Assembly: GCA_016178305.1 (NCBI GenBank)
Contig: JACOTM010000024.1
Span: 1-64,000 of the forward strand
Reading direction: 5' to 3'
Length of the DNA: 64,000 bases
DNA from: Flavobacteriia bacterium
Lineage (GTDB): Bacteria > Bacteroidota > Bacteroidia > Flavobacteriales_D > Crocinitomicaceae
A program made the translations under genes and the position numbers. Under the pieces are notes generated by a model. That model was not told the DNA's origin, did not search any database, and was given only the letters and a program-made list of their open reading frames with translations. Each line of letters begins with the position of its first letter. The first letter of the stretch is position 1. Positions 24,667 to 30,940 of the stretch are shown here, piece after piece.

Positions 24667-26604
24667 ATGAAAAAAAACTCATTTACATTTATCACATTAA
24701 TGTTACTGAGTTTTAACTGTTTATATTGTCAAACAGAAAATAAAGATCTCGATATATTAATTGATCTCGAAAAAAAAGGACATACAAAAAAAATAAATTA
24801 TTCTAAAAGCTTAGTCACAAACAATTACGATAATATTTATAACAGATGTTATTGGAAGATTGATCCATTTGTTAATTATATCGCAGGAAACATTACTTCC
24901 TATTTCAAACCAACTTCCGCTAATTTTAGTCAAATTGAATTTGATCTTTCATCATCGTTAACCGTTGATTCTATTAAGTATCATCAAACTTTAGTTAGTT
25001 TTATTCACGATGATTTTGATTTATTAAAAATTAATTTGAATACAATTATAGCTATAAACCAAATTGATTCCTTAACAATTTATTATCAAGGTTTACCTCA
25101 AAATGGAAATTCTGAAACCTTTATTCAAGAAATTCATGATAATTACCCAATAATTTGGACTAAATCAGAACCTTATGGTGCAAAGGATTGGTGGCCCTGT
25201 AAACAAAATTTAAATGATAAAGTTGATTCACTTGATATTTATGTAGAAATTCCTTTTGGAAATAAAGTAGCTAGTAATGGAAAACTAATTGAAATTATTT
25301 CGAATTCAAATTCAAACACTTACCATTGGAAAAGCTTATACCCTATTGCAGCTTATTTAGTTGCCATTGGAGTAACTAATTACACTGAATTTAGCCAATA
25401 TGTTGTTCATCCTTCAATCACTTATGAAGTTCTCAATTATGTTTATCCTGAAACCTTAGATACTGCATTGGTTCATACGCTTGAAATTATTGACATCCTT
25501 AATCTATACGATAGTTTAACAATAATTTATCCTTTTGCTGCTGAAAAATATGGGCATGCACAATTTGGTTGGGGAGGTGGCATGGAACATCAAACGATGA
25601 GTTTTATGATTAATTTCGATTTTGGATTAATGGCTCATGAATGTGCACATCAATGGTTTGGCGATTATATTACATGTGGAAGTTGGGAGGATATTTGGTT
25701 AAACGAAGGATTTGCGACATTTTTTGAAGGCTTGGCACAACAAAAATTACACCCTGAAAACTGGTATAACTGGAGATATTTTAAAAAAAATAATATTACC
25801 TCAAAATCGTATGGAACTGTTTTTTGTGACGATACTACAAATATCTCTAGAATATTTGATGGTCGTTTAACATATAATAAAGGGGCATATATATTGCACA
25901 TGTTACGTTGGAAACTTGGAGATTCTCTTTTTTTTAATGCGCTTACAAATTACTTAAATGATCCAACTTTGAAATACAATTATGCTAAAACTCAAAGTTT
26001 AATTACCCATCTAGAAGTTACAAGCGGCCAGGATTTAACTAGCTTTTTTGATAAATGGTTTTACAAACAAGGTTATCCAACTTATGAAGTCATTTGGAAT
26101 AAAAAAAATGATCTTCTTAATTTACAGATAAATCAAGTTACTTCTGATCCAAGTGTGCTTTTTTACGAAATGCCCGTTCCAATTAAAATTATCGGTGAAT
26201 TCATGGATACCACAATTATTTTAAATCATCTTTATTCCGGACAAATTTTCACAACTTCGATTCCTTTTCCAATAAAAGAAATTCAATTTGATCCAGAAAT
26301 GTGGATATTATCGCGTAATAATTTAGTTATTAATTCAAATACAGATTACACAAATCCCTTTCAAATCAATATTTTTCCAAACCCAAGTTCTGATGTATTG
26401 TCAATCGAATCTCATAATACGAGTTCTAGCATAAATAAAATCGAAATCTTTGATTTAAATGGCAATTTAGTCTATTATGAATCCGTTACTGATTCCATTT
26501 CAACGATTAAAACGATAGATATTAAAAAATTAGATACTTCAATATATAATTTAAAAATATATACCATGAATGAAGTCGTTAATTTTCAATTTCTGAAAAA
26601 CTAA
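24667..26604 (+). CDS. M1-family zinc metallopeptidase with T9SS C-terminal sorting domain
   Basis: 645 residues. Signal peptide (ending near LYCQ), an N-terminal M1 beta domain, then the zinc site HECAH (near 323-327) with the third ligand Glu in WLNEGFATF. The GAMEN-like exopeptidase motif is changed to GGGMEH. The last about 80 residues (INIFPNPSSDVLSIES..., FDLNGNLVYY) form a type A T9SS sorting domain, so the protein should cross the outer membrane by the Por/Gld machinery and be released or attached outside. Expected activity is aminopeptidase-type peptide cleavage. Its stop overlaps the convergent gene's stop. Confidence 0.92.
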   Translation: MKKNSFTFITLMLLSFNCLYCQTENKDLDILIDLEKKGHTKKINYSKSLVTNNYDNIYNRCYWKIDPFVNYIAGNITSYFKPTSANFSQIEFDLSSSLTVDSIKYHQTLVSFIHDDFDLLKINLNTIIAINQIDSLTIYYQGLPQNGNSETFIQEIHDNYPIIWTKSEPYGAKDWWPCKQNLNDKVDSLDIYVEIPFGNKVASNGKLIEIISNSNSNTYHWKSLYPIAAYLVAIGVTNYTEFSQYVVHPSITYEVLNYVYPETLDTALVHTLEIIDILNLYDSLTIIYPFAAEKYGHAQFGWGGGMEHQTMSFMINFDFGLMAHECAHQWFGDYITCGSWEDIWLNEGFATFFEGLAQQKLHPENWYNWRYFKKNNITSKSYGTVFCDDTTNISRIFDGRLTYNKGAYILHMLRWKLGDSLFFNALTNYLNDPTLKYNYAKTQSLITHLEVTSGQDLTSFFDKWFYKQGYPTYEVIWNKKNDLLNLQINQVTSDPSVLFYEMPVPIKIIGEFMDTTIILNHLYSGQIFTTSIPFPIKEIQFDPEMWILSRNNLVINSNTDYTNPFQINIFPNPSSDVLSIESHNTSSSINKIEIFDLNGNLVYYESVTDSISTIKTIDIKKLDTSIYNLKIYTMNEVVNFQFLKN

Positions 26605-27389
26605 AAAGCTGCTGTTAGTAAATCTAATAATTCAGGTTTTTTGTCCGCAGCCATTGAAAAAATAGAATTTTCTTGCGGAATATATATTCCATCTGAATGA
26701 TTTTTTAATTTATCTTTATCCCCACTCCATGCGTTTGCTTGGGGCACAACAGACATAATACCTCTCATTGTATTGTCTTCAAATTCAGGTTTTGAATTGG
26801 ATTCAGCGAACTTAAATTCCCGTGTTTCTGAATTGCTGAATTGCTCTGCATCAATATTTTCTACAGCACTATCCGCAACATTATTAATCATTGGTGAAAC
26901 AAATGCAATTTCAGTATTGGAAGAAACTTCAGATTTCTTGTTAATTTGTTGATTAGGGACATAATAATTTGAAGGTTTTTCATTTTTTTCTTTGAATCTT
27001 GAATTCTCCAATTTCATTTTAGTCATCGCTAAAATTTCATGTTCCTTAACTTTTGGTTTTAACAAAAATGGCACTGCTAATAGCACAATAATTCCTATAG
27101 CAGCTATTTGCACTAATGGTCTCGCTATAAAATTTTGATTTAGTGGGTATAATTTATGAAAGAAGTTGATATTTTTACTTGAATATTTTGCTTCAAATAA
27201 TAAATCTAATTTATTTTTAGTTTTAAAGGAAACTTCCATTAAATTTTCTTCTATAATTACCGGAAAAACGGCTTTTAATTGATTAAATTCTTCTTCATTC
27301 GTGAACAAGTCTTTAAACGCTTCTTTTTCTTGCATTGTTAATTCAATGAAAGCTTTTTGAAGTATGCTATGTTGTAATTCTTTCTCCAT
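26601..27389 (-). CDS. Probable anti-sigma factor (single-pass membrane protein)
   Basis: 262 residues lying two bases downstream of an ECF sigma gene. An N-terminal helical part of about 90 residues is followed by one membrane helix (about 95-115, VQIAAIGIIVLLAVPFLL) and a long, poorly conserved, polar outer part. This topology and position are those of anti-sigma factors. The N-terminus lacks an obvious zinc HxxxCxxC motif. It would hold the sigma factor at the membrane until an envelope signal releases it. Assignment rests mainly on gene order. Confidence 0.65.
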   Translation of the reverse strand: MEKELQHSILQKAFIELTMQEKEAFKDLFTNEEEFNQLKAVFPVIIEENLMEVSFKTKNKLDLLFEAKYSSKNINFFHKLYPLNQNFIARPLVQIAAIGIIVLLAVPFLLKPKVKEHEILAMTKMKLENSRFKEKNEKPSNYYVPNQQINKKSEVSSNTEIAFVSPMINNVADSAVENIDAEQFSNSETREFKFAESNSKPEFEDNTMRGIMSVVPQANAWSGDKDKLKNHSDGIYIPQENSIFSMAADKKPELLDLLTAAF

Positions 27390-27391
27390 AA

Positions 27392-27979
27392 CTAACGATT
27401 TATCAATGGATTAAATTCTTTTAATAAACTGGCTAAATGTTTTGTCGCATAAAATAATCTTGATTTTACTGTACCTTCATTTAAATCTAACATTTCAGCT
27501 ATTTCTTTAATCGACAAACCATCTTCATGTCTTAATGAAAAAACTTCTCGATGTTTCAAATCTAATTGTTGCATAGAATCAATATAAGTCTTTTGAAAAA
27601 TAGATTCATGTGTTTCTTTCAAAACATCATGAGATTCAGAAACAACTTGAACATGATCAATTCCATTGGAGGTATTTTTGCGGACTTCCTGTTTTTTATA
27701 TTCATTTTTGCACATATTATTGGCAACAGAATACACCCATGTTTTAAAAGTTCTAGAAGCATCAAAAGATTCTGGCTTTTGGATAATTTTGGCAAACAAA
27801 TCATGAACAAAGTCCTCTGCTTTTTCTTTATCTTTCCATAACATACGAAAAAAATAACGCATCAAAGCATTCGCATAACGTGTGTATAATTCGTCAAAAG
27901 CTTTCTTCTCTCCCTTAGAAATTGAAAGCATCAACTCTTCATCACTCCTACTTTTATATGACGTTTTGAAAAATAGCAT
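27392..27979 (-). CDS. ECF-type RNA polymerase sigma factor
   Basis: 195 residues with sigma-70 region 2 (YTRYANALMRYFFRMLWKDKEKAEDFVHDLFAKI, then FKTWVYSVANNMCKN) and region 4 (LDLKHREVFSLRHEDGLSIKEIAEMLDLNEGTVKSRLFYATKHLASLL). No region 1 or 3, hence the ECF class. Its ATG overlaps the upstream gene's TAA by one base (TAATG), and the probable anti-sigma factor follows two bases later, so three genes form one leftward operon. Confidence 0.93.
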   Translation of the reverse strand: MLFFKTSYKSRSDEELMLSISKGEKKAFDELYTRYANALMRYFFRMLWKDKEKAEDFVHDLFAKIIQKPESFDASRTFKTWVYSVANNMCKNEYKKQEVRKNTSNGIDHVQVVSESHDVLKETHESIFQKTYIDSMQQLDLKHREVFSLRHEDGLSIKEIAEMLDLNEGTVKSRLFYATKHLASLLKEFNPLINR

Positions 27980-29163
27980 TAATACTTTTTCTTGATTTTT
28001 TGAACTTGTTCATATTTTTTACATTGAACAGCAATTTTATCTATAATAGCATCTATTTCTACCACTTTTTTCTTTTCATTTTTCGACGCGTAAACATCTC
28101 TTAGTTGAAAAAGCATTAATAAATAATTAGACGATAATTGCTTCGCTTTTTCAGATGAAGGAGAACTTATCAACTTCTTTTCCAATACCGAATTCCAAAT
28201 AAATTCATTTTTATAAAAATTATTTTCAGGAATAGAATGGAATTCAAAAATCAATCCGACAACAAACAAATTTGTTTGAATGGTCTGAAAATATTCTTTT
28301 GGAACTGTTAACGATATAGCAATTTTCTTAAATTCATTATTTTTACAAAATTCGGTTAAATAGGTTACATCTATATTTTTTTGAGCTGGCAAGGTAAAAC
28401 CTAATTTAGTTAAATCATTCTTATACTTTTCACTCTGTAAAAAATCTAAATTTATTATTTTTACATCACTTCTTAAATTTTCATTTAATTGAAGATACAT
28501 TGACGCATAAGAATCATCAAAGCCATGTGTAATTAAAACTCCATTTTCAGGAACAGAAAGCAATAAATCTTTGGCATAAACTATTGATTCTGAACTTAAT
28601 TTATTATTCGCTATTAACTTATTTAAATTTACTAAAGTATTGCTTTTATCTTCACTCAACCAGTAGTAAGCTACTAATTGGGACAGTACTTCGGGATTAT
28701 TTGGTTGAATTTCCTGAGCTTTAAAAAGATATTGATTCAATGCTAGATTGTAATTTCCTGACACATATTTATAAAAATTATATTCAAAAGATTCAGGTGC
28801 ATTTTCCTCTAAATATTGAACAACTTCGTTCATCGATTGTTGATTTGCATCCGTGGGAGTTTTTTGAGTTCTTTGTATAGAAGATTGTGTTTTAGAAACA
28901 TTAAATTCAATCGACTTTTTTTGAACATTTACACCTGTATCTTGAGTTGTAGCAGGTTCATTTTTCTTTTTAGAATAAGATTTTATTACTTTTTCTTCCG
29001 TTTTTTTATCCGATTCTTCCTTTCTAAAATTAGAATCCAATTGGATTTCTTCAACCGAATTGTAATTAATATTTGTATTTTGAACAGGCGCATTCTTTTC
29101 CACTTGACCACTTAAAGAAAACCAACTGAATAATAGATAAAATACGATTTTATGACGTAACAT
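27979..29163 (-). CDS. Exported protein of unknown function heading the ECF sigma operon
   Basis: 394 residues with a signal peptide (FSLSGQ near residue 19), a low-complexity Lys/Ser/Thr linker (about 45-110), a helical TPR-like stretch (QYLFKAQEIQPNNPEVLSQLVAYYWLSE) and a segment PENGVLITHGFDDSYASMYLQLNENLRSDVKIINLDFL that resembles the soluble part of Bacteroidota DUF2723 proteins (NGDNDTYP...RPDVRVVN-type). It is encoded immediately upstream of, and overlapping, the sigma factor, so it may take part in signal sensing; that is inference. Confidence 0.65.
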   Translation of the reverse strand: MLRHKIVFYLLFSWFSLSGQVEKNAPVQNTNINYNSVEEIQLDSNFRKEESDKKTEEKVIKSYSKKKNEPATTQDTGVNVQKKSIEFNVSKTQSSIQRTQKTPTDANQQSMNEVVQYLEENAPESFEYNFYKYVSGNYNLALNQYLFKAQEIQPNNPEVLSQLVAYYWLSEDKSNTLVNLNKLIANNKLSSESIVYAKDLLLSVPENGVLITHGFDDSYASMYLQLNENLRSDVKIINLDFLQSEKYKNDLTKLGFTLPAQKNIDVTYLTEFCKNNEFKKIAISLTVPKEYFQTIQTNLFVVGLIFEFHSIPENNFYKNEFIWNSVLEKKLISSPSSEKAKQLSSNYLLMLFQLRDVYASKNEKKKVVEIDAIIDKIAVQCKKYEQVQKIKKKY

Positions 29164-29213: not shown

Positions 29214-29696
29214 TTATAAATCTTTACCAAAACTATGAATATCATTGTGATTTTCTTCAATTTTATCTTTCACTTTTTTTATAGCTTGAGCAAGCATAAA
29301 GATATCTGGGCTAGCTTTTGTTCGAAGCCAAATCCAGCTATTATTTTCATCTTCAACTGCCATTGCTATATGAAATAATAATTCAAATTTATGTTTTTTT
29401 AACCAAGATTGAGCAGAAGAAATACCTTCAGCAGCATTGATCATAGCCATCAAATGCGGATAACCATTTTTCATCAACCAATCTCTTGCTTCATTATTTA
29501 ATAAAATAGCTGAAGAAGCAATTACTAATTCGGGATAACCATTTGTATTCAACCAATGAATAACTTTTTCATTACCTTCAATTGCTTTTATCCAAGCTAA
29601 AATAATTTTCGGATGATAATCTAATGGTTTCAAAGCTGTTTTCACTACTTTTCCAGTCGTATTAGAAGTTTTTTTCTTTTTGTTAAACCAACTCAT
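29214..29696 (-). CDS. Protein with four to five tandem 25-residue helical repeats
   Basis: 160 residues, no signal peptide; the N-terminus is basic (NKKKKT). From residue 28 the sequence repeats with a period of 25: each unit starts with an aromatic or His followed mostly by Pro (HP, YP, YP, FE, SP at 28, 54, 79, 104, 129), has a central Ala-rich helix and ends with W-L (WL at 48, 73, 98, 123). I do not recognise the family. Its ATG overlaps the end of the SpmA-SpmB-like gene by four bases, so the two should be made together. Confidence 0.75.
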   Translation of the reverse strand: MSWFNKKKKTSNTTGKVVKTALKPLDYHPKIILAWIKAIEGNEKVIHWLNTNGYPELVIASSAILLNNEARDWLMKNGYPHLMAMINAAEGISSAQSWLKKHKFELLFHIAMAVEDENNSWIWLRTKASPDIFMLAQAIKKVKDKIEENHNDIHSFGKDL

Positions 29697-30940
29697 TTTA
29701 ACTCATAAAATAAATATGAAACTAGAATTGCTGTAATAACTCCAACAATGTCAGCAATTATGCCACCTAAAGCTGCATATCGGGTATTTGTAACTTTTAC
29801 AGAACCAAAATAAACAGCTAAAACATAAAAAGTCGTTTCTGTACTTCCTTGGAATGTTGCTGCAAGTTTTGAAACAAAAGTATCAACTGTTTTAACTCCG
29901 TTTGTATTGAATGTTTCCATCATTAATGAACGAGCCCCACTTCCAGAGAAAGGTTTCATGAATGCAACTGGCATTGCTTCAACAAATTCTGTATGAACAA
30001 CCCCTATTAATATTAATAAATTTCGTAATCCATCCGTTAATACCTCCATTGCACCACATTCTCGAAATACAGCTATAGCGCAAAGCATACCAACTAAATA
30101 CGGAATGATTCCGATTGCAACTCCAAACCCTTCTTTTGCTCCCTCTATAAAATTCTCATAAATATTAACTTTAGCTCTGATTGCTAACAATATAAATCCC
30201 GTAATTATTGTAAATAACGTTACATTACTTCCAACTGATGAAACAATTCCAACCATTTCTGGATGATAGTTAAGGTAAATAATTAAACTAATGATTCCTA
30301 TAGTCAATGAACCAACATATAGTAAAATTGTTTTATTAAATAGATTGATTCGCTGCTTTATACCAACATAAATCAATGCTGCTAAAGTAGCAAAAAATGT
30401 AGATATTAATATTGGCAAAAATACTTCTGATGGAGAACTTGAACCAGCAGCTGCTCTTGCGGCTAAAATACTTACAGGAATAATAGTCAATCCAGATGCA
30501 TTTAATACTAAAAACATTATTTGAGCATTTGTAGCTATATCTGGGTTCGGATTCAAAGTTTGTAATTCTTTCATTGCTTTTAACCCCATTGGAGTTGCGG
30601 AGTTATCTAAGCCTAACATATTTGCAGAAATATTCATCATCATCGAACCAATTGCAGGATGATCTTTAGGAACTTCTGGAAATATTTTGGAGAACAATGG
30701 GGAAACTAAACGTGTTAAATATCGAATTGCACCACCAGCCTCTCCGACCTTCATAAATCCTAACCAAAAACACAGAGCGCCCGTCAATCCAATTGATAAA
30801 GTGAAACCAGTAGTTGCTGCATCAAATAATGCCTTCATCATTTTTTCAAAGATTGTTACATCCTGCCAATGAATAAGTTTTTCCAATCCCATTAACATGG
30901 CAATTAGAAACATTCCAAAAAAAATTCTGTTTAATAACAT
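29693..30940 (-). CDS. Fused SpmA-SpmB-like nucleoside-recognition domain membrane protein
   Basis: 415 residues with about ten helices and two Gate/nucleoside-recognition domains. The N-terminal half (FWLGFMKVGEAGG, MNISANMLGLDNSATPMGLKAMKELQ) matches spore maturation protein A and the C-terminal half (VAIGIIPYLVGMLCAIAVFRECG, GSGARSLMMETF, STETTFYVLAVYFGSVKV) matches SpmB. Such fusions are common in non-sporulating Bacteroidota, so the spore name is historical; the transported substrate is unknown. It leads a two-gene operon with the repeat protein. Confidence 0.88.
   Translation of the reverse strand: MLLNRIFFGMFLIAMLMGLEKLIHWQDVTIFEKMMKALFDAATTGFTLSIGLTGALCFWLGFMKVGEAGGAIRYLTRLVSPLFSKIFPEVPKDHPAIGSMMMNISANMLGLDNSATPMGLKAMKELQTLNPNPDIATNAQIMFLVLNASGLTIIPVSILAARAAAGSSSPSEVFLPILISTFFATLAALIYVGIKQRINLFNKTILLYVGSLTIGIISLIIYLNYHPEMVGIVSSVGSNVTLFTIITGFILLAIRAKVNIYENFIEGAKEGFGVAIGIIPYLVGMLCAIAVFRECGAMEVLTDGLRNLLILIGVVHTEFVEAMPVAFMKPFSGSGARSLMMETFNTNGVKTVDTFVSKLAATFQGSTETTFYVLAVYFGSVKVTNTRYAALGGIIADIVGVITAILVSYLFYELK

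Follow-up and report, generated by a model that had tools for sequence, protein, structure and literature searches.

A conserved, unnamed family of small helical-repeat proteins was found from one gene in the window, by which we mean the whole stretch of 64,000 nucleotides of DNA that was analysed. The protein is built of 25-residue units carrying a W-L pair (WL-repeat protein). Its gene is a core and almost always single-copy gene in one order of Bacteroidia, has distant relatives in other families of the class, and is not an oddity of the window. Our best reading, to which we give a probability of about 0.5, is that the product is a soluble cytoplasmic helical-repeat protein that would serve as a small protein-binding scaffold or adaptor with a general role, and whose gene stands beside that of a SpmAB-like transporter in one family. 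Its standing as an unnamed core family makes the finding more interesting than a role as SpmAB adaptor would. No curated family searched covers this conserved protein, which offers a compact and testable repeat scaffold, and its various gene contexts (SpmAB-like, UbiA-like, TfoX-like and a small unnamed protein) supply candidate partners.

The 25-residue unit, its predicted fold and database searches

The repeat gene and its parts are located in the window as follows.

29214..29696, minus strand: WL-repeat protein gene (open reading frame, periodicity, AlphaFold2 model, family conservation)
29619..29696, minus strand: N-terminal basic-aromatic tail, residues 1-26, MSWFNKKKKTSN... (pLDDT, alignment, charge)
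29244..29618, minus strand: repeat region, residues 27-151: units 1-4, each of 25 residues and two helices, then unit 5 as a long last helix
29217..29243, minus strand: C-terminal peptide DIHSFGKDL, residues 152-160 (alignment, model)

The ORF starts with ATG and encodes 160 aa. Residues 27-152 are divided into the units YHPKIILAWIKAIEGNEKVIHWLNTN / GYPELVIASSAILLNNEARDWLMKN / GYPHLMAMINAAEGISSAQSWLKKH / KFELLFHIAMAVEDENNSWIWLRTK / ASPDIFMLAQAIKKVKDKIEENHND, with the approximate consensus G-Y-P-x-L-x-x-x-x-x-A-x-x-G-N-x-x-A-x-x-W-L-x-x-N. When residues 27-151 were scored against themselves with BLOSUM62, lag 25 gave 0.63, where shuffles average -0.94 (sd 0.21); none of 20000 shuffles scored as high at lag 25, and none of 2000 did so at any lag between 5 and 60. 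The second-best lag in the window protein is 50, and the top three lags in the 56-member family are 25, 50 and 75. The 25-residue repeat in the window protein is real. The tandem W-L units of this period, which the sequence-only reading had pointed out, comprise four units with WL (units 1-4) and a degenerate fifth without it.

The AlphaFold2 model of the window protein, made from a 56-row alignment, consists of nine helices, spanning residues 29-39 and 43-51, 55-64 and 68-76, 80-89 and 93-101, 105-114 and 118-127, and finally 130-151, with pLDDT of about 95-98 across residues 31-140. The identical nine-helix layout was obtained for the distant member L177 from an alignment that combined 20 distant rows with 10 near ones, and the two models are not fully independent, as some rows are common to both alignments. 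DSSP assigned no strands in either model, and the pTM values of 0.78 and 0.84 are compatible with a stacked superhelix. The helical character that had been proposed for the repeat is supported by these two confident models, one of the window protein alone and one of L177. Tandem all-helical units in register with the period of 25 are thus well predicted, and they would most likely stack as an alpha-solenoid.

Foldseek against the PDB returned nothing at E 0.001 or better, the best E being 0.39 for the window model and 1.5 for the L177 model. The top rows of a second-look structural search were designed PPR proteins for one model (Z 5.7, rmsd 6.5, 103 aligned) and a designed PPR protein for the other (Z 5.8, rmsd 4.6, 78 aligned), with Z values at a level that, by the structural tool's own description, may reflect no more than a common arrangement; such partial alignment to PPR chains is also compatible with a stacked superhelix. 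The search of viral structures gave a best E of 0.57, which is not significant; three of its rows, at E 0.69, 1.5 and 2.6 and likewise not significant, are giant-virus proteins named as ankyrins. Ankyrin rows are absent from the VIA structural lists as shown, an absence that excludes nothing. As modelled, the exact superhelix would be one without a clear solved counterpart in the structural searches run, which is not proof of a new fold.

At the sequence level, the window protein scores below the cut-off of every Pfam and NCBIfam model, and no PADLOC model matches it. A single weak match was found in PHROG (phrog_17501, E 7.8e-4, residues 116-155), to a family whose function is unassigned there, and the best E values in the PDB sequence search were 0.21 with the protein and 0.2 with the profile, neither of them convincing. 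Scans of family members, whose output does not include member-level cut-offs, yielded scattered weak matches, with a best E of 7.2e-5 for 56 members against Pfam and of 1.6e-3 for 30 members against NCBIfam. The weak Pfam matches that recur are LNS2_PITM (20 of 56 members, best 1.7e-4), SAM_3 and Peptidase_M24_C, the last of which gave the best value of the Pfam scan. The earlier remark that no named repeat has this pattern holds in the Pfam, NCBIfam, PADLOC, PHROG, PDB sequence and Foldseek searches. No paper on the family was found in the literature searched, and by these literature searches and the libraries searched the WL-repeat family is unnamed and undescribed.

Distribution and conservation of the family

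The gene is old, and homologs were detected in 57 of 59 relatives, with one match each. A profile search of the order, which took genomes of at least 90% completeness, was positive in 237 of 245 genomes; 231 of them have one copy and six have two matches, and G005 is counted with only a weaker match (E 4.3e-12). In the class, 92 of 296 evenly drawn genomes are positive, distributed over 20 families, and a profile including distant members raised the number to 93. Only three genomes of the phylum sample (3/247) are positive, all from the window's order, and the 20 listed non-matches belong to other families of the class (224 are unlisted). The gene is therefore rare outside certain families. 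Scanning of genome contigs from all species with two peptide patterns gave 265 relatives, and the best 80 of these are titled Flavobacteriales, Bacteroidetes and similar, with one titled only 'bacterium'. Cryomorpha ignava carries a copy on contig L097. Distant members from 20 loci are 123-173 residues long as called and keep the W-L units. The distant clade is contained in alignment A3, whose rows have 20-40% identity to L177. Two or three gene copies are present in a few distant genomes (G129, G136, G159, G173, G188 and G257). As a separate observation, L189 carries tandem repeat-protein paralogs (L189:4955-5380 and L189:5384-5884), which are 40 and 26% identical to L177.

The repeat gene is under strong purifying selection, with dN of 0.018-0.092 and dS of 0.50-1.82 in seven close pairs and dN/dS of about 0.02-0.08. 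A gene kept so widely in the order, mostly in one copy and under such selection, is likely needed by most cells of the order.

Core-type positions (A, W-L and L) are conserved across the units, and G91 has a counterpart in G41 and a less strict one in unit 4. Other residues are conserved without counterpart in other units, namely E56 in unit 2, H81 in unit 3, K143 in unit 5 and D152/H154. E56 and D152 are the invariant non-repeat positions. Of these unit-specific residues E56 alone persists in the distant clade, which does not retain H81, K143 or the D-x-H peptide. Conservation of this non-repeated kind suggests that the protein has a fixed surface for binding and is not a neutral spacer. In the C-terminal peptide D152 is invariant and H154 nearly invariant within the near clade, and the mean pLDDT over residues 151-160 is 64.

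The N-terminal tail has a net charge of +6 and is largely of low confidence in the model, with pLDDT below 50 in residues 1-3 and 7-16. F or W in residues 2-6 combined with at least 4 K/R in the first 12 was found in 23 of 33 rows from the window's family versus 1 of 23 rows elsewhere, about six of the latter being trimmed or without a certain start, so that their tails may be hidden. Tail and transporter are not strictly linked, because L021 is paired with the transporter and has no tail, and a basic tail is present in L016, L018, L020 and L022, none of which has the transporter next to it. Hydropathy revealed no transmembrane-like or hydrophobic segment, so the repeat protein is probably soluble. 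The core charge is negative in 49 of 56 near-clade rows, which fits protein binding rather than nucleic-acid binding; the rows of alignment A3 vary in this respect, with 16 of 30 negative.

Gene neighbourhood and proposed role

The neighbours of the repeat gene in the window are listed below.

29693..30940, minus strand: Gate-domain membrane protein of 415 aa, presumably SpmA-SpmB-like (PF07670 E 3e-15, hydropathy)
27979-29163, minus strand: ORF flanking the ECF sigma factor, no Pfam match at E 0.001
27392-27979, minus strand: ECF sigma factor, downstream of the repeat gene
26601-27389, minus strand: second ORF flanking the ECF sigma factor, no Pfam match at E 0.001

The 415-aa neighbour contains two Gate (Nucleoside recognition, PF07670) stretches; the name SpmA-SpmB comes from the sequence-only reading, and the search itself gave only the Gate model. 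The ATG of the repeat gene overlaps the stop of this upstream ORF, which bears out the four-base overlap described before. Among the 36 genomes of the window's family the repeat gene was located in 34, and in 30 of these it is immediately preceded by the Gate-domain gene on the same strand. The two genes overlap in 14 pairs, by the starts chosen, and are separated by 1-14 bases in 13 and by 51-136 bases in three. The exceptions are G013, G016 and G017, where both genes are present and unlinked, and G031, a 59% complete genome in which no transporter was detected. In 21 family loci, which were selected for having the pair, no downstream neighbour is common to more than three loci. In the window's family the two genes of the pair thus stay together more firmly than the genes around them do.

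The situation is different in the rest of the order. All 23 genomes sampled outside the family have the repeat gene, and the transporter is beside it in none of them within about 2.5 kb on each side; a transporter homolog is located elsewhere in eight and was not found in 15. Likewise, no transporter was seen in the flanks examined of 80 named loci of the wider order. The repeat gene is without this neighbour outside the family, and therefore the repeat protein does not depend on SpmAB. The proposal that it works with the nucleoside-recognition membrane protein retains its force within the window's family, where adjacency persists while the downstream gene varies, and fails as a general statement. 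The genome survey of the pairing divides along the same line, with consistent pairing in the family (30/34) and none in the rest of the order sampled (0/23).

Two further genes occur around the pair in the 21 family loci, each typed on one representative (loci L235-L254). A class-I glutamine amidotransferase gene is at upstream position -2 in ten loci, and a Sua5/YrdC-type gene is near the transporter gene in 13, upstream in 12 and downstream in one (L241).

An operon with the downstream sigma factor and its two flanking ORFs was considered and rejected, as the ORF at 27979-29163 adjoins the repeat gene only in the window's genome among the loci examined. A weaker homolog of this ORF is found farther off in L140, and distant sigma-factor homologs are present in four other loci. 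Different neighbours were found at the 20 distant loci. In four of them (L179, L181, L182 and L183), all from one distant family, a UbiA-like membrane ORF shares 4-55 bases with the start of the repeat gene; its PF01040 match, scored on one representative, has E 2.9e-5 and is below cut-off. A TfoX-like ORF, whose match is also below cut-off, is beside the repeat gene in five of the 20. An unnamed protein of 76-83 residues is encoded directly downstream in seven (L177:4498-4749, L184:5368-5598, L187:4468-4698, L189:4696-4938, L190:4589-4822, L192:4366-4611 and L193:4519-4767), and three homologs tested gave no Pfam match above cut-off. Since the neighbours outside the window's family are lineage-specific, no single partner emerges from genomic context. 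Among the 59 relatives, 40 have a homolog of the 76-83-residue protein, and the window's genome is one of them (G000:C54:35413-35649). As far as listed these homologs are not beside the repeat gene, and one in G017 is 4.8 kb away from it.

In the scaffold reading the W-L and A positions would build the protein core, and the unit-specific residues (above all E56, with H81 and K143 in the near clade) would mark a fixed surface together with the clade-specific D-x-H peptide. This surface would bind a conserved partner. Basic-aromatic tails are often found at the inner membrane, a location that would be consistent with co-expression with a membrane protein. In the window's family the tail is common and the gene is directly behind the transporter gene, so that there the repeat protein probably works on the inner side of the membrane, close to the SpmAB-like transporter or bound to it. 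The data establish the repeat and its conservation, the purifying selection and the extent of the gene pairing, and the helices are a computed prediction; we infer the stacking of the units, the binding function, the proximity to the membrane and any contact with the transporter. RNA, DNA and lipids are also among the ligands of helical repeat proteins, and this, with the mixed core charge in alignment A3, counts against a protein-binding scaffold.

One rival explanation sees in the repeat protein a subunit dedicated to the SpmAB-like Gate transporter, accessory or regulatory in nature, which would dock on the cytoplasmic face of the transporter and control it. The four-base overlap in the window, the same-strand adjacency across the family with its many overlapping starts, and the weaker conservation of the genes flanking the pair all argue for such a subunit. 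We nevertheless consider it unlikely, for the repeat gene is never beside SpmAB in the 23 order genomes outside the family, and SpmAB homologs were found in only eight of them; three family genomes carry both genes unlinked, and some distant lineages have the UbiA-like ORF, the TfoX-like ORF or the small unnamed protein next to the repeat gene. A general protein-binding scaffold, situated at the membrane in the window's family, is favoured over the dedicated subunit because tail and pairing are not strictly linked. An immunity, antitoxin or mobile-element protein might be suspected from the two or three gene places in a few distant genomes and the tandem copies in L189, and has only the slightest chance of being correct when set against a core and mostly single-copy gene of the order that no PADLOC model matches. 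The repeat protein had no match in plasmids or phages, and none of 39 pattern matches in viral contigs was confirmed; a mobile-element origin is disfavoured on these grounds.

Binding of nucleic acid by a solenoid of PPR-like two-helix repeats, for example on structured RNA, would agree with the designed PPR proteins at the top of the second-look search and with the Sua5/YrdC-type gene near many family pairs, which was typed on a single representative. It is very doubtful, given Z values that may reflect a common arrangement and a near-clade core that is mostly acidic. The unit could instead be a divergent form of a known short helical repeat, either a hairpin-less ankyrin or DUF4116, in which case only the sub-family would be new. 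Ank_4 matches 4/56 members and Ank_2 1/56 at E 0.1 or better (best 1.9e-4), and we take the GN-to-WL-to-NG layout of the WL unit to resemble the GH-to-LL-to-G of ankyrin. DUF4116 is present in G004 with the equal period of 25 residues, and an alpha-solenoid has been reported for it by contact-based modelling (PMC8078820). We judge this origin to be quite improbable, as the ankyrin matches score no better than the unrelated models LNS2_PITM and Peptidase_M24_C, which do as well or better. In addition, hhalign gave 0.5% (A1) and 10.5% (A3) against a single DUF4116 protein and 0.6 and 0.3% against a single ankyrin protein, and the unit-profile shift test with DUF4116 was weak, with 332 of 5000 column shuffles reaching the best shift, which is not the expected register.

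Comparison with known repeat systems

The SpmA-SpmB/Gate proteins are a likeness of the neighbour and not of the repeat protein, whose gene also occurs without it. For the repeat protein itself the relevant systems are helical repeats. The ankyrin unit has two short helices with short loops, as does the WL unit, and comprises 33 residues with a beta-hairpin. The WL unit differs in its 25 residues and in having no strand or hairpin in the models, and no Ank model (PF12796, PF13637) matched the window protein in the Pfam search. Eight alpha-solenoid subfolds are distinguished in a review, which describes proteins of the ankyrin kind as binding mainly other proteins (PMC11514114); Pfam models of those eight kinds are likewise not among the matches of the window protein.

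DUF4116 (PF13475) shares tandem 25-residue units with the WL family, a period seen in the G004 protein and from the 75-base spacing of matches. Its consensus, ALxFASxRLKDDKEIVLxAVKxN, is unlike the WL unit. It also differs by long arrays, with 17 units by motif in the G004 protein, and by its patchy occurrence in 1 of 25 relatives. DUF4116 is not among the Pfam matches of the window protein, nor among the 25 families listed each for the 56-member and 30-member scans (7 and 2 more being unlisted). The G004 protein was encountered in a congener of the window genome and has 649 residues (L206-L219; G004:C41:20642-22207); its N-terminal part is hydrophobic and is followed by about 17 DUF4116 repeats. 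DUF4116 had been considered as parent family for its identical period; homology is supported neither by hhalign nor by the unit-profile shift test, and at the level of profile comparison descent from DUF4116 or ankyrin appears unsupported.

PPR/TPR-like alpha-alpha solenoids resemble the WL protein in that PPR proteins were its best second-look structural rows, and differ by longer units of 35 and 34 residues (PMC8635915) and by Z values that reach only those given above; no PPR or TPR model is among the Pfam matches of the window protein. Set beside these systems, the WL-repeat family may tentatively be regarded as a new alpha-solenoid sub-type, with an unusually short 25-residue unit and a superhelical geometry absent from solved structures, which would fulfil an unrecognised conserved function in Bacteroidia by holding a partner on its unit-specific surface and C-terminal peptide.
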